A stretch of 64,000 bases of DNA from assembly GCA_026709065.1 (NCBI GenBank), contig JAPOTS010000040.1, forward strand, positions 1 through 64,000, in the 5' to 3' direction. The notes beneath the pieces were generated by a model. That model saw only the letters and a list, made by a program, of their open reading frames with translations, did not search any database and was not told where the DNA came from. Both the position numbers and the translations under genes were made by a program. This DNA is from Bacteroidota bacterium (lineage in GTDB: Bacteria; Bacteroidota; Rhodothermia; Rhodothermales; Bin80). Positions 3,006-47,762 of the stretch are shown piece by piece (the first letter of the stretch is position 1; each line of letters opens with the position of its first letter).

Positions 3006-4184
3006 TCAATGATTGGGATCCGATCCAATGAGTGCGCCTAATTGAAAGAGGTTCATGATGAGGTTCATGGCATCTTCATTTTCAAGATAGGGGCTAAGAG
3101 ATTTATAATTGAGTTCATCACGCCCAGTTAATAGCTGAGCAAGGGGTTTAAGATCTTTTCCAATGATGATTTCTTCTCCCATCGCATAGATAGCAACTCC
3201 ATCATCTAATTCATGATATACAATTACAGAAGGAGATTGGCGAAGTAGGATGACATCTTTGATCAGTTCAGCATGGATTAGATCAGCAGATGGGGAGTGC
3301 CAGAATAGACTGGAATCAAGGTCTCTCTGTGGGTGTGTGATTCCTGTACATAGAACTTGAGCGAGATAACAGCGGTCTTCTACGATGAGACGCATTTCGT
3401 TTTGAAACCAATCAAGTACAGTCTTACTGACTTTTCCAGGGTCATCAATCTGGGATGTATCAATATCGGGATACAACTCAGGCTTCCATTGCAGTCTTTC
3501 GGCCATTTTATGAAAACTGTGACCGATAGTTGCCTCATCGGGGATCTTAAAACCAATACTTGCGGTGATACATTGATTTTTTGCAAATCCCCAATGTGGA
3601 ATTTTAGGTGGAAGATAGAGTATATCTCCAGACTTAACGATCAATTCCTGATCAGGGTCAAAGGACTCAAGGACCTGAATATTCAAATCTTGAATAAATG
3701 ACCGTTTCTCGGTAATCGGTTGGGATTCAATTTGCCATACTTTTTCTCCGCTGAGCTGAACGAGAAATACATCATAGCTATCCACATGAGGGCCAGCACT
3801 TCCGTCCATGACTGAAAAGCTTAACTGAACGTCGTCCAACCGCCAGTTGGGGATAAAGCGGAAATGCTCAAGCAATTCGTGCATTGAGTCAATCTCCCAC
3901 TCTGTATTCTGAACAAGTAGAATCCAATTTGTATCCTCAAGTCTTTCAATGAGATCGTTTTTGTTAAACGGGCCAGGAGTTTGGATCCATGGTTCTTCTT
4001 CATCTAACTCCTGAATGAATCGCGAAACAAAATCAAAGCGGGTCGCTAAGTTAAAGATTTCATTCCGACACACAGGGAAATCGGATGTCTTGAATACATT
4101 TTGAAGAAAGAGTGGACGTTTCTGCCAATAATCTTGCATAAACGTTTTCAAGGATACGTCAGCAGAAAAAGGGAATTGGGTCAT
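3006..4184 (-). CDS. roxA: JmjC/cupin-type ribosomal oxygenase (RoxA/YcfD-like)
   Basis: A 2-oxoglutarate/Fe(II) oxygenase of 392 residues, a little longer than E. coli YcfD. Family members hydroxylate arginine 81 of ribosomal protein uL16. The N-terminal YWQKRPLFLQ, the central NWRLDDVQLSFSVMDGSAGPHVDSYDVFLVQ (positions about 3750-3860) and PPKIPHWG match the family. PHVDSYD supplies His and Asp of the iron triad and PHWG the distal His. The C-terminal third matches the dimerisation/winged-helix part. The start ATG overlaps the stop of the upstream 55-aa gene (ATGA), showing translational coupling. The uL16 substrate is inferred from family. Confidence 0.85.
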   Translation of the reverse strand: MTQFPFSADVSLKTFMQDYWQKRPLFLQNVFKTSDFPVCRNEIFNLATRFDFVSRFIQELDEEEPWIQTPGPFNKNDLIERLEDTNWILLVQNTEWEIDSMHELLEHFRFIPNWRLDDVQLSFSVMDGSAGPHVDSYDVFLVQLSGEKVWQIESQPITEKRSFIQDLNIQVLESFDPDQELIVKSGDILYLPPKIPHWGFAKNQCITASIGFKIPDEATIGHSFHKMAERLQWKPELYPDIDTSQIDDPGKVSKTVLDWFQNEMRLIVEDRCYLAQVLCTGITHPQRDLDSSLFWHSPSADLIHAELIKDVILLRQSPSVIVYHELDDGVAIYAMGEEIIIGKDLKPLAQLLTGRDELNYKSLSPYLENEDAMNLIMNLFQLGALIGSDPNH

Positions 4185-4348
4185 AAAATCAGCTTGATCA
4201 GTTCAAACAGAGGCCAGATTAAAAGCAATGCCATGACCCAAGCCATGAGCAAGCGACTTTTGGCTTGCCGGGGAAATTCATACCCACAATAGGGGCATAC
4301 GTCAATATTGCGCTCAACTTCCAATGCACATGACGGACATTCTTCCAT
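4181..4348 (-). CDS. Small zinc-ribbon membrane protein (55 aa)
   Basis: A short gene of 55 codons. The first 25 residues hold two CxxC pairs (CPSC and CPYCGYEF), the pattern of a zinc ribbon. The last 25 residues form one hydrophobic helix (LLMAWVMALLLIWPLF). The stop codon TGA overlaps the ATG of the roxA-like gene (bases ATGA at 4184-4181), so it reads as the first cistron of the operon. Function is unknown. Similar zinc-ribbon-plus-one-helix proteins are common and uncharacterised. The last gene of the operon, a channel, also carries a zinc ribbon. Confidence 0.7.
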   Translation of the reverse strand: MEECPSCALEVERNIDVCPYCGYEFPRQAKSRLLMAWVMALLLIWPLFELIKLIL

Positions 4349-4448
4349 TGGTGTAGGTTAATTCTTGAATTTAGGCGTATAAGTCCAAACTTGTAAGAAA
4401 CAAACTTACGTTCAACGTTTACACTATCAGTTAACAGTTTAGTTTATT

Positions 4449-5042
4449 GTGACTATTGATACTCCCATAGCGCTACCCGTTGTAGATGTTTCGCCATCGG
4501 TTGAAATATCAATTGCAACCCCCCAACACTTTCAATTTGCGCATGAAATTTGTCATCTCATTAAGACCGCCGCTGCACAGCGAGGGACTGGGATAGCAGA
4601 GCGCCATCCAGAATATATTCGTCAAAAAATGAGAGAGGGGAAAGCCGTGATTGCTCTTGGACCCAATGATGAAGTGGCAGGATTCTGCTACATTGAGACT
4701 TGGGATCACGGAAAATATGCCGTGAATTCTGGTTTAATCATCTCCCCAAATTTTCGTAGACAGGGCTTAGCCCGCCGCATCAAGCGCCGTGCGTTTGAAC
4801 TCTCCAAGCAACTTTACCCCAAAGCTAAGTTGTTTGGGATTACCACGAGCCTTGCAGTGATGAAGATTAATTCAGACCTTGGATATAAACCTGTAACATT
4901 CAGTGAATTGACCGATGATGAAGAATTCTGGCAAGGATGTCAGAGTTGTCCGAATTATGATGTTTTGCAACGAATGAATCGGCAGATGTGTCTCTGTACT
5001 GGGATGCTCTATGATCCCGAAAATCAATCCAACTCAGAATAA
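4449..5042 (+). CDS. GNAT acetyltransferase, N-acetylglutamate synthase-like
   Basis: A single GNAT domain of 197 residues. The acetyl-CoA loop is FRRQGLARRI (about residues 103-112), after a beta strand SGLIISPN. The C-terminal segment with LFGITTSLAVMKINSDLGYK, FWQGCQSCPNYD and CLCTGMLYDP matches a Bacteroidota subfamily that is usually found in arginine gene clusters and is thought to act as N-acetylglutamate synthase. No other arg gene is nearby, so the role is inferred from wording only. The start is a GTG; homology begins about 18 residues in. It is followed by priA after 7 bases and is probably cotranscribed. Confidence 0.7.
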   Translation: MTIDTPIALPVVDVSPSVEISIATPQHFQFAHEICHLIKTAAAQRGTGIAERHPEYIRQKMREGKAVIALGPNDEVAGFCYIETWDHGKYAVNSGLIISPNFRRQGLARRIKRRAFELSKQLYPKAKLFGITTSLAVMKINSDLGYKPVTFSELTDDEEFWQGCQSCPNYDVLQRMNRQMCLCTGMLYDPENQSNSE

Positions 5043-5049
5043 TTAAACC

Positions 5050-7518
5050 ATGTCGTGCGCTATTGGTGTTGCCTTGCCGATCCCTATCGATAAGGTCTAT
5101 GCCTATGAGCTGCCAGAAGAACTTGAGCACTCCGTTGGGGTCGGCTCTCTCGTACTAGTTCCTGTTCGGAACCGTAACTATACAGGTATTGTCACGGAGA
5201 TGAATATTCAAGTTCGTGAGGATATGGAACTCAGATCCGTGAGAGCCGCTGTGAGCGGTGAACCTCTACTGAGTTCTGAACTGCTTAGACTCACCCGTTG
5301 GATCTCGCGGTACTATGTGTGCGCTTGGGGGGAGGCATTAAATGCTGCATTGCCTTCTGGAATACAGTCCAAAGAACGCGTGGTCTATTACCTTGCCTCA
5401 GAATCATCCCACGACTGGAGAAATATCTCTCCCGAGTTACAGTTACATTTAATCAAGCATCGGAGCACAACTCCTGCACGACTGAAACGCTTTGGATTGC
5501 GAATTTCTGATCAGGAAATTGCTAAAGCCGAATCGCAGGGCGCGTTGCAGAGAACGGTTGAATTACAAGATCCTACTGTCGCCACCAAGACAGACAAATT
5601 TTTGTTAATTGCGCCAGCATTTCGGTCATCTGCTGCTCTGATAGATGTGAGTACACAAGTGCAGGGGAATAAGCAAAAAGAATTGATTCAGGAGCTGATT
5701 CGCCGCATCAAATCTGGGGAGGATGATCTTTCAATAACAGACCTGAAAAGATCATGTAATGTCAGTCTTTCAACCATCAGATCGTTAGAGAAGCGAGGAT
5801 TATTTTCAATAGTAGAAAAGGAATCGTTTCGGATTCCAGAATGGATGCGCTCCGAGAAACTTCCATCAAGTACTCCTCCAGAATTTCACCCATTTCAATC
5901 CAAAGCGGTTGATGCACTGTGTGAGGCAGTCAATGTTAAGGCATTCAAAACATTCGCACTTCATGGCGTAACAGGAAGTGGAAAAACCGAGGTGTATTTG
6001 GCTGCACTTGAGACGGCATTTTCTCTTGATCAGACCGCTATTGTACTTGTTCCAGAAATCTCACTCACGCCCCAGACCGTACGACGATTTCAGGAGAGGT
6101 TTGGTAATTCAGTTGCTGTTCTACATTCCCGCATGGCCAAGGGAGAGCGTCATGATGTCTGGCAATTGATTCGCGCTGGGAAGTATCGTGTAGTGATTGG
6201 GCCTCGGTCTGCAGTGCTTGCTCCGTTAAAGAATCTAGGATTAATCATCGTAGATGAAGAGCATGATGGATCCTATAAGCAGAGAGAAAAGGCTCCACGC
6301 TATCATGCCAGAGATGTGGCTGTCATGCGTGCAAAGATGAATCGGTGTGTGTGCGTCTTGGGATCTGCAACGCCGTCTTTGGAAACACTATCCAATGTGC
6401 AACAAAATAAATACACTCTGTTATCTATGCCAGAGCGTGTACCTGTCGAAGGCCGTACAGCTGCGCCCCTTCCAGCTATTCGGATCATTGATCTATGTTA
6501 TGAGCGTGAAGAACATGGACTTGAAGGTCCAATGTCCACTCCACTCCTTGAGGCCATTGAACAGAGGTTAGATCGCAAAGAACAAGTGATTCTGCTTCAG
6601 AACCGCCGTGGCTATGCTCCAATTCTTGAGTGTCAGAACTGTGGACATGTTCCTCAATGTATTGCATGCAGTGTCTCAATGACCTATCACCAGATTGATC
6701 GTAGTCAGCGGTGTCACTATTGTGGCTATCAATCTGCAGTTGTCATTAATTGCCCAAAATGTGGTGCTCCAGCATTTGCTCCAATGGGTAGTGGAACACA
6801 GCGAGTTGCAGAAGAGCTTGGTGAGTTATTCAAATCCGCGAACATTCTTCGTATGGATCATGATAGCACCCGAACCAAGGATGCACATCATGAGATACTG
6901 AGTGTCTTCGGGAGAGGCGATGCTGATATTTTGATTGGAACTCAGATGGTGGCCAAAGGGCTGGACTTTGAACGTGTGACTTTAGTTGGGGTGATCAATT
7001 GCGACCTAGGACTACGGCTGCCTGATTTTCGTAGTGAGGAAGGGACGTTTCAGTTACTGATGCAAGTGGCCGGTAGAGCCGGTCGGGCAAACCTTCCTGG
7101 AGAAGTATTGCTACAAACTAGACGGCCAGCACATCCACTTTTTGCATTCTTGAAGTCACATGACTTTGATGGATATGCACGGCTACTGATGACGCATCGC
7201 CAAAAATTGAACTATCCTCCTTTTGGCCGTATTGTTGGGATTCAAATTCGAGGAGCCCCCAAACCCACCGTTCTGGAGCTCGCCAATCAATGGAAGGCCT
7301 TATTACTAAATCAGTTACCATCTACTGTCAGTGTACTTGGCCCAGAGCAACCATATGTTGAGCGCGTTGAGCATCAATTTCGAAATTATCTGATCCTGAA
7401 AGCTCCGAAGTCATATACATCTCTGCAGGATGATATTCGCACTATTCAAAAAATTTCTCCATCAACGGGACGGGACCTTCATGTATCAATTAATGTTGAT
7501 GGGGTGGAGCAGGAGTGA
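5050..7518 (+). CDS. priA: Primosomal replication restart helicase PriA
   Basis: An 822-residue superfamily 2 helicase that reloads the replisome at stalled forks. The N-terminal fork-binding domain is followed by Walker A GVTGSGKT (306-313), the Walker B variant DEEHDGSYKQREKAPRYHARD, and helicase motifs GSATPSLET and GTQMVAKGLDF. A cysteine-rich zinc region lies between the helicase lobes (CQNCGHVPQC, CHYCGY, CPKCG), all eight cysteines being visible. The C-terminal QVAGRAGR and PPFGR motifs are also present. Length and domain order are those of a complete PriA. The SRP RNA follows 40 bases after the stop. Confidence 0.97.
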   Translation: MSCAIGVALPIPIDKVYAYELPEELEHSVGVGSLVLVPVRNRNYTGIVTEMNIQVREDMELRSVRAAVSGEPLLSSELLRLTRWISRYYVCAWGEALNAALPSGIQSKERVVYYLASESSHDWRNISPELQLHLIKHRSTTPARLKRFGLRISDQEIAKAESQGALQRTVELQDPTVATKTDKFLLIAPAFRSSAALIDVSTQVQGNKQKELIQELIRRIKSGEDDLSITDLKRSCNVSLSTIRSLEKRGLFSIVEKESFRIPEWMRSEKLPSSTPPEFHPFQSKAVDALCEAVNVKAFKTFALHGVTGSGKTEVYLAALETAFSLDQTAIVLVPEISLTPQTVRRFQERFGNSVAVLHSRMAKGERHDVWQLIRAGKYRVVIGPRSAVLAPLKNLGLIIVDEEHDGSYKQREKAPRYHARDVAVMRAKMNRCVCVLGSATPSLETLSNVQQNKYTLLSMPERVPVEGRTAAPLPAIRIIDLCYEREEHGLEGPMSTPLLEAIEQRLDRKEQVILLQNRRGYAPILECQNCGHVPQCIACSVSMTYHQIDRSQRCHYCGYQSAVVINCPKCGAPAFAPMGSGTQRVAEELGELFKSANILRMDHDSTRTKDAHHEILSVFGRGDADILIGTQMVAKGLDFERVTLVGVINCDLGLRLPDFRSEEGTFQLLMQVAGRAGRANLPGEVLLQTRRPAHPLFAFLKSHDFDGYARLLMTHRQKLNYPPFGRIVGIQIRGAPKPTVLELANQWKALLLNQLPSTVSVLGPEQPYVERVEHQFRNYLILKAPKSYTSLQDDIRTIQKISPSTGRDLHVSINVDGVEQE

Positions 7519-38373: not shown

Positions 38374-39954
38374 ATGTCACAAAAAAGTAAAGAATCTGGG
38401 CAGAGTCAAGTTTTAGACAATCGCTCAATGATGGCGGAGTATGAGGTTAAACTCTGGGAAATGGCCGATGCATTAAGAGGCACGATGGATGCATCAGAAT
38501 TTAAGCATGTAGTTCTTGGACTACTCTTTTTGAAGTATATCTCGGATGCATTTGAAGAAAGACGGCAAACTCTTGAGGGTGAACGTTCAGATGGTGCTGA
38601 TCCAGAGGATCCAGATGAATACCGAGCAAAGAGTATTTTTTGGGTTCCTCAGGAAGCACGTTGGGAACACCTCATGAAAAAGGCCCCTCAATCTAGCATC
38701 GGCAAAGAGGTTGATAATGCAATGAGAGCAATTGAAAGAGAGAATGATAGCCTAAAAGGAATACTTCCAAAAGACTATACCCGCCCTGCAATCAATACAG
38801 AGCGTCTTGGCAAACTCATTAATTTGATCAGTAATATTCAAGTGGGAGGTGCAGAGGCGCGTTCAAAAGATGTATTAGGCCGTGTTTACGAGTATTTTTT
38901 ATCTCGGTTTGCCAGTGCTGAGGGAAAAAGAGGGGGTGAGTTTTATACTCCGAGATGTATAGTGCAACTTTTGGTTGAAATGATAGAACCCTACAGAGGG
39001 CGTGTCTATGATCCCTGCTGTGGTTCTTCTGGAATGTTTGTTCAGTCCGTAGAATTTATCAGCTCCCATGCAAATAATAATGGAGATCAATCACGGGGAG
39101 ACATATCTATTTATGGTCAGGAGTCAAATTATACGACTTGGCGTTTGGCGAAAATGAATCTAGCAATACGAGGAATTGATGGTCAGATTGCACAGGGCGA
39201 TAGTTTTCACGAAGATAAACATCCAGATTTAAAGGCAGATTATATTCTAGCAAATCCTCCATTCAATGTTTCGGATTGGGGGGGAGAGAGATTAAAAGAA
39301 GATGGGCGCTGGAAATATGGTGTGCCACCTAAGGGTAATGCTAATTTTGCATGGGTGCAACATATCCTCCATCATTTATCCTCGAACGGAATTGCTGCAT
39401 TCGTATTGGCAAATGGATCAATGTCTTCTGGTCAGAAGGCTGAAGCTGAGATACGGAAAAATTTGATTGAAAATGGTTTAGTAGATTGTATGGTAGCTTT
39501 ACCGGGTCAACTTTTTTATTCAACTCAAATTCCAGCATGTTTATGGTTTCTGGCGCGTAAGAGCAAGCGAAAGGAAAAAATTTTATTCATAGATGCACGT
39601 AAAATGGGCCGAATGCTGAGTCGGACACTAAGGGAACTTATTGCCGAAGAAATCAGTCGTATAGCGAATACATACCACTCTTGGCAGAAAGGAGCAGATG
39701 GTAATGGGTATGAAGATGTTCCAGGGTATTGCAAGAGTGCTTCCATTGAGGAGGTTCAAAAGAACGAACATGTCCTAACTCCAGGTCGTTATGTAGGTGT
39801 AGAATCTCAGGAAGAGGATTCAGAGCCGTTTAGCGATAAGATGAAGCGACTAGTTGTACAACTTGGCCAACAGCAGTCTGAAAGTGCAAAGCTTGATCAG
39901 GCAATTAAAGCGAACTTAGAGATGCTGGGATTTTCGATAGGGGAGAAAGAATAG
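38374..39954 (+). CDS. hsdM: Type I restriction-modification methyltransferase subunit HsdM
   Basis: A 526-residue N6-adenine methyltransferase. The N-terminal helical HsdM_N domain ([20 protein letters not shown]) is followed by the catalytic domain. The SAM motif is [10 protein letters not shown] (213-222), with Ser in place of the second Gly of the usual DPxxGSGG, and the catalytic motif is NPPF (294-297). A C-terminal helical region assembles with Hsd[15 protein letters not shown] is also typical. It is first in the locus; 108 bases separate it from the HEPN gene. Confidence 0.95.
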
Positions 39955-40062: not shown

Positions 40063-40485
40063 ATGTCACTTGATTTAGAAAGTTTGAAGAAATCTTTCAA
40101 TGCTCTGAAAGAAGTTTTCGCTGTAAGCGAGGATACTGAGCGTATGAGTCAGCGCACCCACTTTGAAGTGATTGCTATTCGTGCAGGTGTATTGAAACAT
40201 TTTGAGATGACTTATGAGTTAAGTTGGAAGATGATTGCACGTTGGCTCAACAACAATGTGACGACAGGCATTGCCGATGGAATTTCAAGGAGAAATCTAT
40301 TCCGATTGGCTCTTGAGAACCGCTTGATTCAAGATTTTGATAGATGGGACAATTACCATGATGCTCGAAATGATGCCGTTCATAGATATAGTTTTGAAAG
40401 AGCCGAAATGATATATATGCTGATAGGTGAATTTATTTCTGATACTCAGGATTTGATTCGTGCCTTAGAGGCTCAAAATCATTGA
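40063..40485 (+). CDS. HEPN protein, HI0074/NTase-substrate-binding family
   Basis: A 140-residue four-helix HEPN-fold protein of the 'nucleotidyltransferase substrate binding' family (HI0074 type). The text HFEMTYELSWKMIARWL is diagnostic. The HEPN motif RNDAVHRY gives R102-x4-H107-x-Y109, which is the active-site signature of HEPN ribonuclease toxins together with the tyrosine that partner nucleotidyltransferases can modify. It is encoded 13 bases before a gene whose first 100 residues are exactly such a nucleotidyltransferase. I infer a toxin-antitoxin pair inside the restriction locus. The activity itself is not shown by sequence. Confidence 0.85.
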   Translation: MSLDLESLKKSFNALKEVFAVSEDTERMSQRTHFEVIAIRAGVLKHFEMTYELSWKMIARWLNNNVTTGIADGISRRNLFRLALENRLIQDFDRWDNYHDARNDAVHRYSFERAEMIYMLIGEFISDTQDLIRALEAQNH

Positions 40486-40498
40486 ACATTAATCTGAA

Positions 40499-42202
40499 AT
40501 GAGTTCTTTTTCTCCTGTGATTGATCTCAGTCCTGACCATTGGAAAATTGTGCGAGAGGCACTTCGTCTCCATGTTCCAGATTACCAAGTTGTTGCGTTT
40601 GGATCGCGGGCAACTTGGACTGCAAAGGACTACTCTGATTTGGATCTTGCTATTTTAAGTGAGGATCCACTACCGGTTTCAACGCTTGCTGCTTTGAGGG
40701 AAGATTTGGAAGAATCTATTCTCCCATTTAGAGTTGATGTTATTGATCTTGCCAGTGTTGAGGAAGGTTTTCGGCTTATTATTAAAGAGCAAGGAGTTAC
40801 GCTACAAAATCACAATCATATTCAAAATTCAACAAATAATGCATATACAGATCATGGGCATGATATTGGTTTGAAATTGATTAACGGAGACTCTAAGTCG
40901 GAGACATACAAAAATAGTTGGAAAACTTTTAAAATTGGTGATCTCGGCCGAATTGTGACTGGAAAAACTCCTTCAACCGCAGATGCTGGTAACTATGATG
41001 GTATCTTTCCATTCATTACAATTCCAGACCTCAAAAATCATGCTCTTATTCATGAAAGCCAAAGAACATTGAGTGATAAGGGTGCGTCCAAAGTTCACTC
41101 CAGCCGCCTTCCTACTGGTGCTGTTATGATGTCCTGTATTGCAACCATAGGCGAATGCGGCATAACAACTCGCCCGAGTTTCACAAATCAGCAGATAAAT
41201 AGTCTCGTTCCTATAAGTGGGATAGACTCACGCTTCTTGTACTATGTATTTACTCAACTAGGAGCTGAGTTGGATTCAAGAGGGGGGGGAGGTTCAATCT
41301 ATACAAATGTTTCAAAGGGGCGTTTTTCTGATATTGAGATTACTATTCCAGTTGATTTATCTGAGCAACGCGCTATTGCTTATATTCTTGGCTCATTAGA
41401 TGACAAAATTGAACTTAATCGTAGAATGAACAAGACACTAGAAGAGATGGCTCAGGCACTATTCAAATCTTGGTTTGTTGATTTTGAGCCTGTCCGTGCT
41501 AAAATGGAGGGGCGAGATACAGGATTACCAAAACATATTGATGATATGTTTCCAGATCGTTTGGTCAACTCTGTGCTAGGGGAAATTCCAGAGGGTTGGG
41601 AGGTGACAACTTTAGGGGAAATGTCATCAAAACCCCAGTACGGATACACAGCCTCTGCAACTCCAGAGCCAAAAGGTCCGAAATTTCTGAGAATCACGGA
41701 TATCAACAAGTCGTTTTGGATTAGTTGGAATCAAGTACCCCATTGTCAGATTAGCAGTGATGAATTTGTTAAGTACAGACTTCAAGAAGGAGATCTATTA
41801 ATTGCTAGAATGGCTGATCCAGGTCACTGCATTCTTGTGGAGGAAGATATTAATGGTGTGTTTGCATCTTATCTCATAAGATTTCGTCCAATAAAAAAGT
41901 TCCACCGTCATTTCCTCCAATATTGGTCGCGATCTGTATTATACTGGCAGCTTGTAAGAACCACATCAGTTGGTACAACACGTAAAAGCTTGAATGCAAG
42001 AGCTCTTAGTTCATTTAAACTAACGATCCCTCCAGATTGCATAGCAGAAATTTTTCAATCAATTGTTAGTTCATATAGAAGTCAAGTATTGAGTCATGCT
42101 AATCAGATTTCGTTGCTGTCACGAATTCGCGATACTCTTCTCCCTAAGCTGATTTCTGGGGAAATTCGCACAGTTATATCCCCACCCAATAAACACATTT
42201 AG
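40499..42202 (+). CDS. hsdS: Fusion of minimal nucleotidyltransferase (MNT) and HsdS specificity subunit
   Basis: A 567-residue two-part protein. Residues 1-105 are a minimal nucleotidyltransferase: FGSRATWTAKDYSDLDLAIL gives G35-S36-x10-D47-x-D49, with the third acidic residue in FRVDVIDL (D80). A polar linker (106-138) leads to a complete HsdS. Target-recognition domain 1 starts at SWKTFKIGDLGRIVTGKTPS, a central conserved helix includes LNRRMNKTLEEMAQALFKSW, domain 2 starts at LGEIPEGWEVTTLG, and the second helix ends LLPKLISGEI. No stop, frameshift or internal start lies at the junction. Normally the MNT gene is separate. All catalytic residues are retained, so the MNT part is probably active. 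Confidence 0.92.
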   Translation: MSSFSPVIDLSPDHWKIVREALRLHVPDYQVVAFGSRATWTAKDYSDLDLAILSEDPLPVSTLAALREDLEESILPFRVDVIDLASVEEGFRLIIKEQGVTLQNHNHIQNSTNNAYTDHGHDIGLKLINGDSKSETYKNSWKTFKIGDLGRIVTGKTPSTADAGNYDGIFPFITIPDLKNHALIHESQRTLSDKGASKVHSSRLPTGAVMMSCIATIGECGITTRPSFTNQQINSLVPISGIDSRFLYYVFTQLGAELDSRGGGGSIYTNVSKGRFSDIEITIPVDLSEQRAIAYILGSLDDKIELNRRMNKTLEEMAQALFKSWFVDFEPVRAKMEGRDTGLPKHIDDMFPDRLVNSVLGEIPEGWEVTTLGEMSSKPQYGYTASATPEPKGPKFLRITDINKSFWISWNQVPHCQISSDEFVKYRLQEGDLLIARMADPGHCILVEEDINGVFASYLIRFRPIKKFHRHFLQYWSRSVLYWQLVRTTSVGTTRKSLNARALSSFKLTIPPDCIAEIFQSIVSSYRSQVLSHANQISLLSRIRDTLLPKLISGEIRTVISPPNKHI

Positions 42203-42809
42203 TCAGACAATAGCCTGAAAATTTACTGGAGTTGAATAAATAATGTTAAGACTAATCCAAAATTTATTGGTGAAGGGTTTTCTTAGGGACAATACCCTAA
42301 TATTGAATTGGAAGTCAGGTGGATTTCGGGATAACAAATCCACTTCAATACACAGTGATTAGTCCGTGCTTGGTTCACGAATTCGCCTAAGTATATTTCA
42401 AGATCCGACAGAGATGTATTCACTATGTGGAGTATCTAATTCCATGGGGACTAAAGATATACGATTTAGCGATTTGAACCTAATGAACTAAGTGCTTCAA
42501 AATTTGGGTAGCATCCAATTGGAGCAAACATATAAGAATCAAATAGTCACAAACCTTCATCACGCATAGGGGCGAGGGAGTTGCATCATGTAGTCTGAAA
42601 ATACATTTTCTGTGCACAGGCCATCTTTTTTGAAGATCAATGATCATGAATTCCTCGTGGTAATTTCAGCCTCTCAAACCACAATTACATATTTTCAAAC
42701 TTATGTGAATCAGAAATACCTCAAGCATTGTTGAATCTATGTAATCTTACCCTAAACCAGATTAGTTATATCACGAGTGGTTAGATTGAATATTTAAATA
42801 TTGATTTAG
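42203..42809. other. Untranslated 0.6 kb within the restriction locus, with hairpins
   Basis: No gene seen on either strand between hsdS and the ATPase gene. Two perfect stems lie near its start: TTAGGG (42293-42298) with CCCTAA (42305-42310), and GTGGATTT (42319-42326) with AAATCCAC (42336-42343), the latter extendable by GAA/TTC across a bulge. Neither has a T tract. The stretch may separate two transcription units or hold a small RNA. Confidence 0.4.
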
Positions 42810-43967
42810 ATGGCACGCATAGATCATTTTTCTGTAAGCGGTTTTAAGTCAATTCGTAACGTTGATAAATTTGAACTTGGTCCCGTGACCATTCTGATTG
42901 GTGATAACGGAACTGGAAAAAGTAATCTGCTAAGTTTTTTTAATATGTTCGCTGCTCTATCTCAGGAGCGCCTTCAAGAGTTTGTCCATGATGAGGGTGG
43001 ACCGGACGCATTACTTTTTGGTGGACGAAAACATACTTCAAGAATTCAAGCCGGGCTATCATTTAATAATAATAATTGCGAATACGAATTTTCACTTGAA
43101 TCAAAAGATAACTCATTAATTTTTTCCCACGAGAAGACTATACCCGGAATTGAAAGCGATGACGATGACGCAGATTTGAGCTATTTAGACTTTTTAATTG
43201 GTGGATATAGAACAGACAATGAAGCCTCAGTATGGCCAGGCGGCAATAAAGAGACATTTCTAGCAAAAACCCATGAAAGCCTATTTACTTCGTACGTATT
43301 ACCCCAGATGAAAAGCTGGCAAATTTTTCATTTTCAAAATATGTGTCATACGGCTCGAGTTCGCAATCACTCGGATATATGTGATAATCTCTGGCTTAAA
43401 CCAGATGCAAGTAATCTATCGCTCAATTTATTTTACCTTAAAGAAAAGTATCCGAATCATTATCGGAGAATCGTGCAAGTAACCAATGTTTTTGCCCCAT
43501 TCTTTGTAGATTTTGTTTTAAATGGGGAGAATAGTACAAGAGATAGCCTACAATTAGAGTGGTATCACGCATCAGGGGGGCAAGAATCGTTATATAGCCC
43601 TCAACAACTTTCAGATGGTTTATTACGATTCATATGCCTTTCAACTCTGTTAAATCAGCCACATTCCATGCAGCCTAGCTTAATCCTCATTGACGAACCT
43701 GAGCTGGGACTAAATCCATATGCACTTGCGCTCCTGTCCGAAATGATTCAAAGTGCTGCCAACTATAAACAGGTCATCATCTCAACCCAATCTCCAGAGC
43801 TTATTAATAATTTTGATCCACAAGATATTGTGGTTGTGAGCAGGCAGAACGATGAAACCGTTCTAGATAGGCTGGATTTAGATAGGCTGGATATTTGGTT
43901 TGAGAATCATTCACTCGGAGATTTATGGAAAATGAATGTTATCGGGAGTAGGCCTCTACCATGTTGA
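42810..43967 (+). CDS. AAA/ABC-type ATPase of a restriction-linked defence pair
   Basis: A 385-residue ATPase of the AAA_21/OLD-like group. It begins IDHFSVSGFKSIRNVDKFEL, with Walker A GDNGTGKS (31-38), an ABC-like signature region LSDGLLRF (267-274), Walker B LILIDEPELGL (291-301), and a D-loop/His region ISTQSPELINNF. It has no nuclease domain of its own. The next gene overlaps it by 7 bases and encodes a Toprim-like DUF4276 protein, so the two resemble a split OLD-type nuclease. Proteins of this sort (RloA/RloB, AbiL-like pairs) are known inside or near type I restriction loci. Confidence 0.88.
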   Translation: MARIDHFSVSGFKSIRNVDKFELGPVTILIGDNGTGKSNLLSFFNMFAALSQERLQEFVHDEGGPDALLFGGRKHTSRIQAGLSFNNNNCEYEFSLESKDNSLIFSHEKTIPGIESDDDDADLSYLDFLIGGYRTDNEASVWPGGNKETFLAKTHESLFTSYVLPQMKSWQIFHFQNMCHTARVRNHSDICDNLWLKPDASNLSLNLFYLKEKYPNHYRRIVQVTNVFAPFFVDFVLNGENSTRDSLQLEWYHASGGQESLYSPQQLSDGLLRFICLSTLLNQPHSMQPSLILIDEPELGLNPYALALLSEMIQSAANYKQVIISTQSPELINNFDPQDIVVVSRQNDETVLDRLDLDRLDIWFENHSLGDLWKMNVIGSRPLPC

Positions 43968-44641
43968 CAATTATTGTCCTGTGTGAAGGAAAAACTGAAG
44001 TTGAATTTGTGAATAAAATTATATATAATGAACTTTTCCCAAAAGGGATTTATGTACAACCACGCCTAATTCCTACCTCCACTAAATCAAGTGGAGGTGC
44101 ACTAAATAAACAGCGTATTTTCTATTATCTTCGGGATGCTCTCAGGGAGAGAAGAAATACTTATGTAACAACATTTTTTGATCTATATTGCTTGCCACGA
44201 GATTTCCCAGGACTTCAAAGCGTTGATACAATAAGGGATCCTGTTGATCGCGTGGTAAAAATTGAGGAAGCGTTTCACCAAGCGGTAATCAGTGAGATCG
44301 GTTGTAGACCGGATCGCTTTTTACCTTACATTCAACCATATGAATTTGAAGCCTTATTATTTTCTGATCCAAAATGTTTTTCCAGAATTGAACCTAGATG
44401 GAAGAAATTTGATGATTCACTCGTTTCAATACGTCACAAATTTTCAAGCCCTGAGCATATCAATAATGGAATTCATTCGCATCCATCTGCTCGACTTCGT
44501 AAACTTTTAGATCCTGAATACAAAAAGGTAGAACATGGTTCTAAAATATCAGCGAGGATTGGTATTATTCGTATTCGTTCAGAGTGCAAGCATTTTGATC
44601 TCTGGCTTAATAATATTGAAAACCTTTCCGAATTAGAATAA
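43961..44641 (+). CDS. DUF4276 Toprim-like protein, partner of the upstream ATPase
   Basis: A 226-residue protein. The N-terminal [10 protein letters not shown] has the Glu-Gly motif of Toprim-like folds, followed by the DUF4276 hallmark [15 protein letters not shown] (70-84), then [13 protein letters not shown] and [16 protein letters not shown]. In this family the acidic residues of the first and second motifs are the likely metal ligands. It overlaps the ATPase gene by 7 bases and precedes hsdR by 13. Nuclease activity is inferred from fold similarity only. Confidence 0.82.
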
Positions 44642-44654
44642 CAGAAATTTAATC

Positions 44655-47600
44655 ATGACATTAATATCAGAAGATCTAGTAGAAGAAGAAGCTCTTGGAT
44701 GGTTTTATGAGCTTGATTATGGTAAAATTAACGCTACACCTAGTGAGTACATACTACGTCCGTCATCTAAAGATGTGTATTTCAAAACAATTTTGACTGG
44801 AGACCTGAAACGAATCAATCCCACGCTTCCTTCAGAAGCAATTCAAAATGCTCAGTTCAAAATACTTAATCTAAGAGGCCATTCCATTGTCTCTAAAAAT
44901 CGCCAGTTTCATCAGATGGCCATTGAGGGCGTGTCAGTTGAATATCAGGGGGATGATGGCAAACCTCGTTACGATCGTGTTAAGATTTTTGATTTTGATA
45001 ATCTTGATAATAATTCATGGTCTGTCGCCAATCAATTTCTTGTATCGGAGGGTAAGCACAAACGGAGACCCGATATTGTGATATTTGTAAATGGACTTCC
45101 GCTTGCCGTGATTGAGTTAAAATCACCCTCTGATAGAAGCGCCACACTTAAGACTGCATGGAATCAATTACAAACCTATAAAAATCAGATTCCATCTCTT
45201 TTTGTCTATAATCTAGCGTTAGTGATTTCAGATGGAACGCAAGCGACTATCGGTTCGCTTACAGCTGGCATTGAATGGTTCAAATTTTGGCGGACAATTG
45301 ATGGAGAGACCTTCGCTTCAAACACCGATCAAAAATTAGAAGTTCTCATCAAGGGCGTTTTTGAGAAAGGTCGCTTACTTGATTTGATGCAGAATTTTAC
45401 TGTTTTTGAAGACGATGGTATAGAAGTATCAAAAAAATTGGCCGGATACCATCAGTTTCATGCAGTCAGAGCCGCAATCTCTGAAACACTTCGCGCCACT
45501 CAAAAAATACAATCTGACACTCATACTGTCACGGGTCGTCCCGTTAATTATGGTGGTGCGCTCGGTGATAAACGGGTTGGAGTTGTATGGCACACTCAGG
45601 GATCAGGGAAAAGCCTCACAATGGTGTTTTACACCGGAATGATCATCCGACATCCCGACATGGAGAATCCTACAGTGGTGGTTTTGACTGATAGGAATGA
45701 TCTTGATGATCAACTCTTTACAACATTTTCCAGATGCAAAGGGCTTTTACGTCAGACTCCAGTCCAAGCGGAATCTCGCATCGACCTAAGAGAAAAATTA
45801 TCTGTGAAAGCGGGAGGAATCGTATTTACAACGATTCAGAAATTCTTTCCAGATCATCAGGGTCATGATCATGCGCTTCTCTCTGAGCGACATAATATTG
45901 TCGTAATTGCAGATGAGGCCCACCGAAGTCAATATGACTTTATTGATGGATATGCCAGACACATGCGAGATGCGCTACCCAATGCATCATTTATTGGATT
46001 CACTGGAACACCAATTGAACGGGCTGATACGAATACACGCTTGGTATTCGGTGATCATATCAGTATATACGATATTCAGAGATCAGTTGATGACAAAGCA
46101 ACAGTACCTATTTATTACGATTGTCGACTTGCCGAGCTAAGTTTAGATGAAAGCGAACAACCCAAACTTGACCCCAAATTTGAAGAAATTACCGAGAATC
46201 AGGAATCTGGGGAGCGAGAGAAGACAAAATCAAAATGGTCGAAACTTGAGGCAGTTGCTGGTTCCCCCCAACGGACCAAGATGATTGCCGAAGATATTTC
46301 TTCTCACTTTCAACAACGTCTGGAAGTGCTACATGGCAAGGCGATGATTGTCTGTATGAGTAGAGAAATCTGTATTGATTTATATCAAGAATTGGTTCGT
46401 CTTAATCCCCAATGGCATAGCGAAGATGATCATAGTGGGGCGATTAAGGTGGTCATGACAGGGTCAGCATCTGATCCTAATGACTGGCAACCACATATTC
46501 GGAGTAAGTCCAGACGAGAGATGCTTGCAAAACGATTTCGTGATCCTGATGATCCTTTCAATATAGTCTTAGTCCGGGATATGTGGTTGACTGGTTTTGA
46601 TGCCCCAAGTCTTCACACTATGTATATAGATAAGCCAATGCGGGGCCATGGGTTGATGCAGTCGATTGCGAGAGTGAATCGGGTGTTCAAAGACAAGCCT
46701 GGTGGATTGATTGTTGATTACCTTGGACTGGCTAATCACCTTCAATTAGCATTAGCTAGCTACACGGAAAATGGTGGTCAAGGAAAGTCTACTTTAAATA
46801 AGAATGAGGCAGTTGAGGCAATGCTAATTAAATATGAAATTTGCGTTACCATTTTCCATGGATTTGACCGGTCTGTAAATTCTTCAAAAGAATTACTAGA
46901 TATACTACCAGCAGCAATGCAACACATTTTAGCACAGAAAAATGGGAAAGAACGATTCATCAAGGCAGTACGAGGACTCAAGAAAGCTTTCACATTAGCC
47001 GTTCCGCATGAAGAGGCTGACCGTATTAAAGATGATGTTGCTTTTTTTCAGACTGTGGCGACTGCACTGTCAAAACGTGCGCCAGATGAGCTCCACGCTG
47101 ATGAGAAAATAAATCGTGCTATGCGTCAGATCGTCTCGCAAGTTGTCGTATCAGATGGAGTAATTGATATCTTTTCTTCTGCAGGATTGAAGAAGCCCGA
47201 AATATCAATTCTTTCTGAAGATTTTCTCAAGCAGGTGCATGCTCTTCCTCAACCCGACCTCGCAGTAGAAGTCTTACGAAAACTATTGAAAGGAGAGATA
47301 TTAAACCGCAGAAGAAAGAATATTATCCAAGCTAAATTATTTTCGGAAATGTTGCAAGATACGGTCAATCGCTATCAAAACGATGCATTTGACACACTAT
47401 TTATTATTGAGCAATTGATTAATCTTGCAAATGAAATGCGGGACGCTAATGCCCGCGGAGAAGCACTTAATCTTTCTGATGATGAGCTTGCATTTTACGA
47501 TGCACTCGGAGATAACGATAGTGCAATTAAAGTCTTGGGAAATGAAAAGCTCAGCGAAATCGCACGCAAATTGACTCAAACGATTCGCGAAAAAGTCAAA

Positions 47601-47762
47601 ATTGACTGGATATATCGCGAGGATGTTCAAGCCGAAATACGAAGTTTAATTAGACGAGATCTTCGAAAATTTGGTTATCCTCCAGATAAACGAGAAAAAG
47701 CAGTAAAGACAGTCATTAAACAGGCGGAAGTATTATCTGCTGACTGGGCAAATGCGCAATAG
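44655..47762 (+). CDS. hsdR: Type I restriction endonuclease subunit HsdR
   Basis: A 1035-residue motor-nuclease. The N-terminal PD-(D/E)xK nuclease reads [20 protein letters not shown] (D140, E154, K156). The helicase lobe has Walker A TQGSGKS (314-320), DEAH (420-423), and IGFTGTPIE (motif III). The second lobe has [22 protein letters not shown]-terminal helical region (about 800-1035) binds the methylase core. All motifs are intact, so the restriction enzyme should be active provided hsdM and the hsdS fusion work. It closes the island. Confidence 0.96.

Follow-up and report, generated by a model that had tools for sequence, protein, structure and literature searches.

On its plus strand, the analyzed stretch of DNA (the window, 64,000 nucleotides) contains an entire type I restriction-modification locus with the gene order hsdM-HEPN-hsdS-ATPase-DUF4276-hsdR (Table 1). 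The genes hsdM, hsdS and hsdR are all present with intact motifs, among them NPPF in HsdM and PD..ELK (residues 139-156), GSGKS (316) and DEAH (420) in HsdR. The reading frames of the ATPase and the DUF4276 protein overlap by 7 bases (43961-43967), and the end of the DUF4276 gene is followed after 13 bases by the ATG of hsdR (44655), exactly as given in a preliminary description of this DNA.

Table 1. Genes and features of the type I locus, with positions in the window.
Feature	Position	Strand	Evidence and remarks
hsdM	38374..39954	+	type I N6-adenine methyltransferase; Pfam N6_Mtase 5.6e-109, HsdM_N; NPPF motif at residue 294
HEPN protein (HI0074 / NTase_sub_bind family)	40063..40485	+	PF08780 2.1e-25; TIGR01987 8.5e-19; RNDAVHRY
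hsdS with N-terminal MNT nucleotidyltransferase domain	40499..42202	+	Pfam NTP_transf_2/Polbeta and Methylase_S
Intergenic stretch between hsdS and ATPase gene	42203..42809	.	607 bases, 35% GC, no notable gene; position of variable cargo in sister loci
HEC-01A, OLD-type ABC ATPase	42810..43967	+	385 aa; PADLOC HEC-01A 1e-115; AAA_21 3.5e-25
HEC-01B, DUF4276, Toprim-like presumed two-metal nuclease	43961..44641	+	226 aa; Pfam DUF4276 7.3e-44; PADLOC HEC-01B 1.4e-68
hsdR, type I restriction/translocase subunit	44655..47762	+	HSDR_N, SWI2_SNF2, T1RH-like_C; PADLOC REase_I

The preliminary description placed the ATPase-DUF4276 pair between hsdS and hsdR and regarded restriction, HEPN/MNT and the pair as three functions in one transcriptional set. 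The gene order and the tight junction with hsdR bear out this position, and the genes for all three functions are there, but the pair is not tight on hsdS. Since 607 bases without a cargo remnant part hsdS from the ATPase gene, the assumption of a single transcriptional set is weakened. Using tblastn, no remnant of cargo was found in this gap, the inspected matches being the HsdS C-terminus and the ATPase N-terminus at its edges. A promoter scan of the gap yielded 2 sigma-70-like sites compared to 3.1 expected from shuffled sequences, the scan covering a promoter type other than that of the host. Coupling is plausible by distance only between the ATPase-DUF4276 pair and hsdR.

The motif RNDAVHRY of the HEPN protein corresponds to the R-x4-H-x-Y of HepT-type toxins. 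In HsdS, the first ~105 residues form the MNT domain (residues ~8-105) with a GSR-x9-DLD motif, fused to the Methylase_S target-recognition domains. The motifs of HEPN/MNT (type VII) toxin-antitoxin systems are thus both present, RNDAVHRY in HEPN and GSRATWTAKDYSDLD in MNT, and the MntA model matched MNT-HsdS with 6.8e-13, which is below the model cut-off. The HEPN/MNT function attributed to the locus earlier is real and odder than claimed, as MNT is the N-terminus of HsdS. This fusion recurs in most loci of this type I subfamily, across phyla and with or without the ATPase pair; the GSR...DLD motif is usually kept and the upstream HEPN gene mostly encodes R-x4-H-x-Y. A limited literature search revealed no description of an MNT-HsdS fusion. 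HEPN-MNT/HsdS was found without the pair in six loci (L124-L126, L128, L140, L141) and the pair without HEPN-MNT/HsdS in two (L084, L092), so the two modules are separable. With this fusion, HsdS could be the antitoxin of the HEPN toxin, and this arrangement may be a stranger feature of the locus than the pair itself.

For the identification of the pair, both proteins were searched against profiles of defence systems. Using PADLOC, both matched HEC-01 over their full length and in adjacent genes, and HEC-01A and HEC-01B far outscored all other defence models (Table 1). The defence character assumed in the preliminary description is supported by these profiles. HEC denotes the "Hma-embedded candidates," which were mentioned as discovered through embedding (PMC12988326), Hma being a helicase-methylase-ATPase locus. 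The Hma embedding was taken here as the context of discovery and not as a requirement for HEC-01 membership. The window pair agrees with HEC-01 in both genes, their order and their profiles, and a relative lies in an Hma-like embedding within a WYL-SNF2-methyltransferase locus on the Aeromonas plasmid pMC64A (L145). In contrast, the host locus in the window is not Hma but a type I hsdMSR locus with HEPN and MNT-HsdS. According to its profiles, the pair is an HEC-01 module and as such an already catalogued defence candidate. In the literature searched, no functional study of or experiment on HEC-01 was found, and the term DUF4276 occurred in no paper. The DUF4276 protein gave no match in PHROGs, and a search of phage records gave no match either, so the pair is not evidently phage-borne.

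The relationship to PARIS, AbiL or RloAB proposed earlier was not supported, since at 1e-3 none of the partner proteins in these systems is matched by the DUF4276 protein; within PADLOC it matches HEC-01B alone, and in Pfam DUF4276. PARIS (the ABC ATPase AriA with the Toprim nuclease AriB) shares the split into separate ATPase and Toprim genes, but by profile the nuclease in the window is DUF4276 and neither AriB nor DUF4435 (E 1e-3). For AbiL and RloAB, the ATPase matches AbiLi weakly (5e-19), and the DUF4276 protein has no AbiLii or RloB match. The methylation-associated defence system MADS also combines a restriction-like locus with an AAA ATPase; here the ATPase reached 79.3 bits against MAD3, far below the family cut-off of 420, and the DUF4276 protein matched no MADS model. 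The OLD family and Gabija GajA resemble the pair in combining an ABC ATPase with a Toprim, here a likely Toprim-like protein, and in an active site running E, E, D, xxE, K (PMC6755086). The pair differs from these, and from single-polypeptide OLD proteins of classes 1-3, in consisting of two overlapping genes instead of one, in having no UvrD-like partner and in a DxY in place of DxD.

AlphaFold2 models of both proteins, based on 34 aligned relatives, had a pLDDT of 93 for DUF4276 and 87 for the ATPase. The six best structural matches of the DUF4276 model using VIA-align were PH0156 (Z 9.4), a protein without an assigned function, as well as four OLD Toprim entries (Z 9.0-8.2) and PARIS AriB (Z 8.0), aligned over 171-182 residues. 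The next entries had a Z of 7.6 and lengths of at most 131 residues, so that the values of 8-9 for OLD and AriB are only slightly above those of unrelated proteins, although the OLD and AriB alignments are longer, with 174-182 residues. Foldseek gave no significant match for the model (best E 0.015), and a sequence search of the PDB gave only weak ThyX matches (E ≥ 0.02), which were taken as chance. Based on the model, DUF4276 likely has a Toprim-like fold near that of OLD proteins and AriB; the assignment is graded as likely and not as proven because Foldseek alone did not reach significance.

The active site of class 2 OLD proteins consists of E400, E404, D455, D457, T506-x-E508 and K562 (PMC6755086). 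The counterparts in DUF4276, assigned by motif order and spacing rather than by superposed coordinates, are in the same order E9, E13, D74, Y76, E128-x-E130 and K189, and both the distance of 4 between E9 and E13 and the spacing within E128-x-E130 are as in OLD. Of these residues, E9, D74, E128, E130 and K189 are invariant in all 34 relatives and E13 in 33 of them. The distances between the motifs are similar in length (D to E 56 in DUF4276 vs. 53 in OLD; E to K 59 vs. 54). Almost throughout the DUF4276 family, the second Asp of the Toprim DxD motif is a tyrosine (Y76; DxY), which is why catalysis could differ. In the aligned sequences, most positions of the OLD two-metal active site are conserved in DUF4276. 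A candidate enzyme chemistry with named residues can now be assigned to HEC-01.

The ATPase contains a Walker A motif (G31-K37), the signature LSDG (267-270) and a Walker B motif (D295, E296), and its model matches the heads of SMC, Rad50, PtuA and AriA with Z 18-21 (AriA, 8v46, Z 18.2). Together with the AAA_21 match, these structural matches and those of the DUF4276 model support the earlier description as an AAA_21/OLD-like ATPase with a Toprim-like partner. The two residues emphasized there, K37 and E9, are the Walker A lysine and the presumed Toprim glutamate, each found in 34 of 34 homologues. In the GLHP motif following Walker B, residue 302 (43713-43715) is an Asn in the window ATPase and a His in the other 33 of 34 sequences. 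The window copy also has long end branches in the trees of the ATPase (0.67) and of HsdR (0.69). Together with the lone Asn302, these branches suggest that this copy may be evolving fast.

DUF4276 was found in 33 of 196 related genomes searched, and in nearly all regions fetched from relatives the ATPase gene lies directly 5′ of it. A scan of the genome collection with four embedded members as queries resulted in 38 loci. In 14 loci (the window, L078-L088, L091 and L092), the order ATPase-DUF4276-hsdR is flush, with a distance between DUF4276 and hsdR of −7 to +16 bases. These loci belong to five phyla, namely Rhodothermota, Pseudomonadota, Deinococcota (Truepera), Acidobacteriota (Bryobacterales) and Chloroflexota. 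In L094 and L115, hsdR also follows the pair, but at a greater distance. Given this recurrence of the flush order, the gene order in the window is not due to chance, and the arrangement between hsdS and hsdR pointed out earlier is a recurrent one. The ATPase-DUF4276 junction ranges between −7 and +2 bases in all 14 loci, whereas the distance between hsdS and the ATPase gene ranges from −32 to 5089 bases with varied cargo (KAP NTPase, M78 peptidase, DUF1828/1829, DEAD helicase, KwaB-like). Since the hsdS side varies in distance and the hsdR side is fixed, the stable unit consists of the pair and hsdR.

The embedded pairs fall into two supported clades of the ATPase tree, one with 11 members (97/96) and the other with two (100/100). 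The embedded state requires 2 changes on this tree, compared to a mean of 11.9 after shuffling, and none of 500 shuffles was as low. Embedding of the pair before hsdR thus arose at least twice. Among 12 embedded loci, the pairwise divergence of the ATPase and of DUF4276 is correlated with that of HsdM (r 0.66 and 0.86, respectively) and of HsdR (r 0.71 and 0.75; all p < 0.001), and not with that of HsdS (r 0.18 and 0.20). This fits a long joint inheritance with hsdM and hsdR and a recombining HsdS, and is compatible with function as well as with linkage as its cause. One HEC-01 lineage therefore appears to have long been associated with a type I restriction backbone and inherited with it across five phyla, which is new. 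The HsdR tree implies at least five gains or losses of the pair. In L078-L087 and L091, the embedded pair and HsdR cluster MAGs of Rhodothermota, Deinococcota and Gammaproteobacteria together, against taxonomy. This suggests block transfer of the pair and HsdR between phyla, which, judging from isolate names, may have taken place in shared habitats (sponges?).

The slot before hsdR is also used by other genes. In the sister loci L124-L143 it holds GmrSD, Fic, RhuM, Shedu SduA, KwaB, Abi_C, an M78 peptidase, a subtilase with an AAA protein or AAA_14/DUF4143, and in L128 it is empty. These unrelated defence genes are as close to hsdR as the pair is. L133 has a subtilase-family (S8) peptidase and an AAA ATPase (complement, about 3799-7275) directly before hsdR and after GmrSD, possibly a protease-based cargo pair. 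Comparable defence cargo inside type I operons was described for DarTG2 and TgvAB, whose effectors differ from ATPase-DUF4276. In E. coli, DarTG2 occupies the interval from hsdS to hsdR, and a pair of an AAA-like ATPase and a "putative RNA-binding protein" was found in the same slot in four genomes (PMC12255303). TgvAB lies inside a type I operon of V. cholerae, and its protection is independent of HsdR activity (PMC11411939).

Outside the embedded clade, the pair usually occurs without neighbouring type I restriction genes. In L100 and L106 it is flanked by obgE and proB, which in L106 are 6 and 3 to 4 bases away. Other free pairs adjoin, among others, a threonine synthase and a PIN gene (L095), PEP carboxylase (L046, L074), an S9 peptidase (L039, L042) or an aminotransferase (L063), and L102 is likewise found by housekeeping rather than restriction genes. 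Such pairs are close to their neighbours and mostly co-directional; by an eye count on crude gene calls, about 36 of 41 readable cases have an upstream neighbour in the same direction (binomial p about 0.01 vs. an assumed 70%). Further copies on plasmids were found in a DEAD helicase-methyltransferase-Mrr locus and, alone beside VapBC, on a plasmid of 10.9 kb. At the site following PEP carboxylase in the genus of the window, the pair is present in three genomes and absent from the genome of the window (L161) and others. The pair is therefore gained and lost as a complete module of two genes, which argues against a strict requirement for HsdR. In one of the three genomes with the pair (L158; G003 C80), it is duplicated in tandem right behind PEP carboxylase. 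In L159 (G002 C4), the DUF4276 frame is seemingly broken after about position 1494 by a short insert whose ends are inverted (CCTTTTGCAAAACCTC ... GAGGTTTTGCAAA) and which may be a small mobile element.

With a probability of about 0.6, we interpret the pair as a split OLD-type HEC-01 system, in which an ABC ATPase would control a separate Toprim-like nuclease in a phage-triggered, abortive response, one lineage having settled before hsdR and been co-inherited with hsdM and hsdR. The fold resemblance, the conserved motifs, the pairing, the position and the co-divergence with HsdM and HsdR are observed; from these and by analogy with PARIS and OLD, we infer a defence function with the following biochemistry. 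The ABC-family ATPase would be both sensor and cage of DUF4276, binding the nuclease and keeping it inactive until a phage signal engages the ATPase. The released or activated DUF4276 would then use two-metal catalysis to cut nucleic acid of the host or the phage, and this cutting would abort the infection. The pair itself can live alone, and one of its lineages settled directly before hsdR in the type I backbone.

A more specific form of this explanation, and the model of the preliminary description, is that the pair guards restriction: it would monitor its own type I system, for example an HsdR bound by a phage anti-restriction protein such as a DNA mimic, and fire on a block of restriction, in the way that PARIS responds to Ocr. 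The flush order in five phyla and the divergence that tracks HsdM and HsdR agree with this, and PARIS-like OLD-ABC/TOPRIM modules in BREX loci were interpreted as a countermeasure to Ocr-type anti-restriction (PMC12839542). However, the pair has relatives without any restriction genes, the slot takes unrelated cargo with equally tight junctions, and the pair was repeatedly gained or lost on the HsdR tree. As sister slots hold other cargo and many free pairs adjoin metabolic genes, proximity to hsdR alone is no proof of a guard, which we regard as conceivable but doubtful. Alternatively, the hsdS-hsdR interval could be a general cargo bay and the pair an independent defence module held in place by nothing more than co-expression and joint transfer, which is compatible with the split OLD-type explanation for the pair itself. 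The chances of this are about even: the diverse cargo and the empty slot of the sister loci, DarTG2 and the HsdR-independent TgvAB, and the free pairs near metabolic genes or beside VapBC all point to it, but the pair is fixed at hsdR and co-diverges while the hsdS side varies, which is steadier than a free passenger needs.

A regulator or repair module outside defence, formed by a RecF/Rad50-like ATPase and an inactive Toprim, appears improbable. The resemblance of the ATPase to SMC/Rad50 heads, the incomplete DxD motif and the many free copies among housekeeping genes would fit such a module, as would the cell-cycle role reported for an archaeal OLD-family ATPase (PMC12796447). The patchy presence among relatives, the presence or absence at one site within a genus, the occurrence in restriction or Hma-like loci and on plasmids, and the conserved metal-site residues of DUF4276 speak against it. 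Embedded and free relatives, as well as filled and empty slots, provide a natural comparison for asking whether such pairs guard their host system.

For the locus as a whole, a rather unlikely arrangement would be a type I system with two fail-safes, in which HEPN is freed on loss of MNT-HsdS and the split OLD/Toprim pair at hsdR fires when HsdR is blocked. Its pieces recur in several phyla in the order M-HEPN-MNT/HsdS-cargo-ATPase-DUF4276-HsdR.
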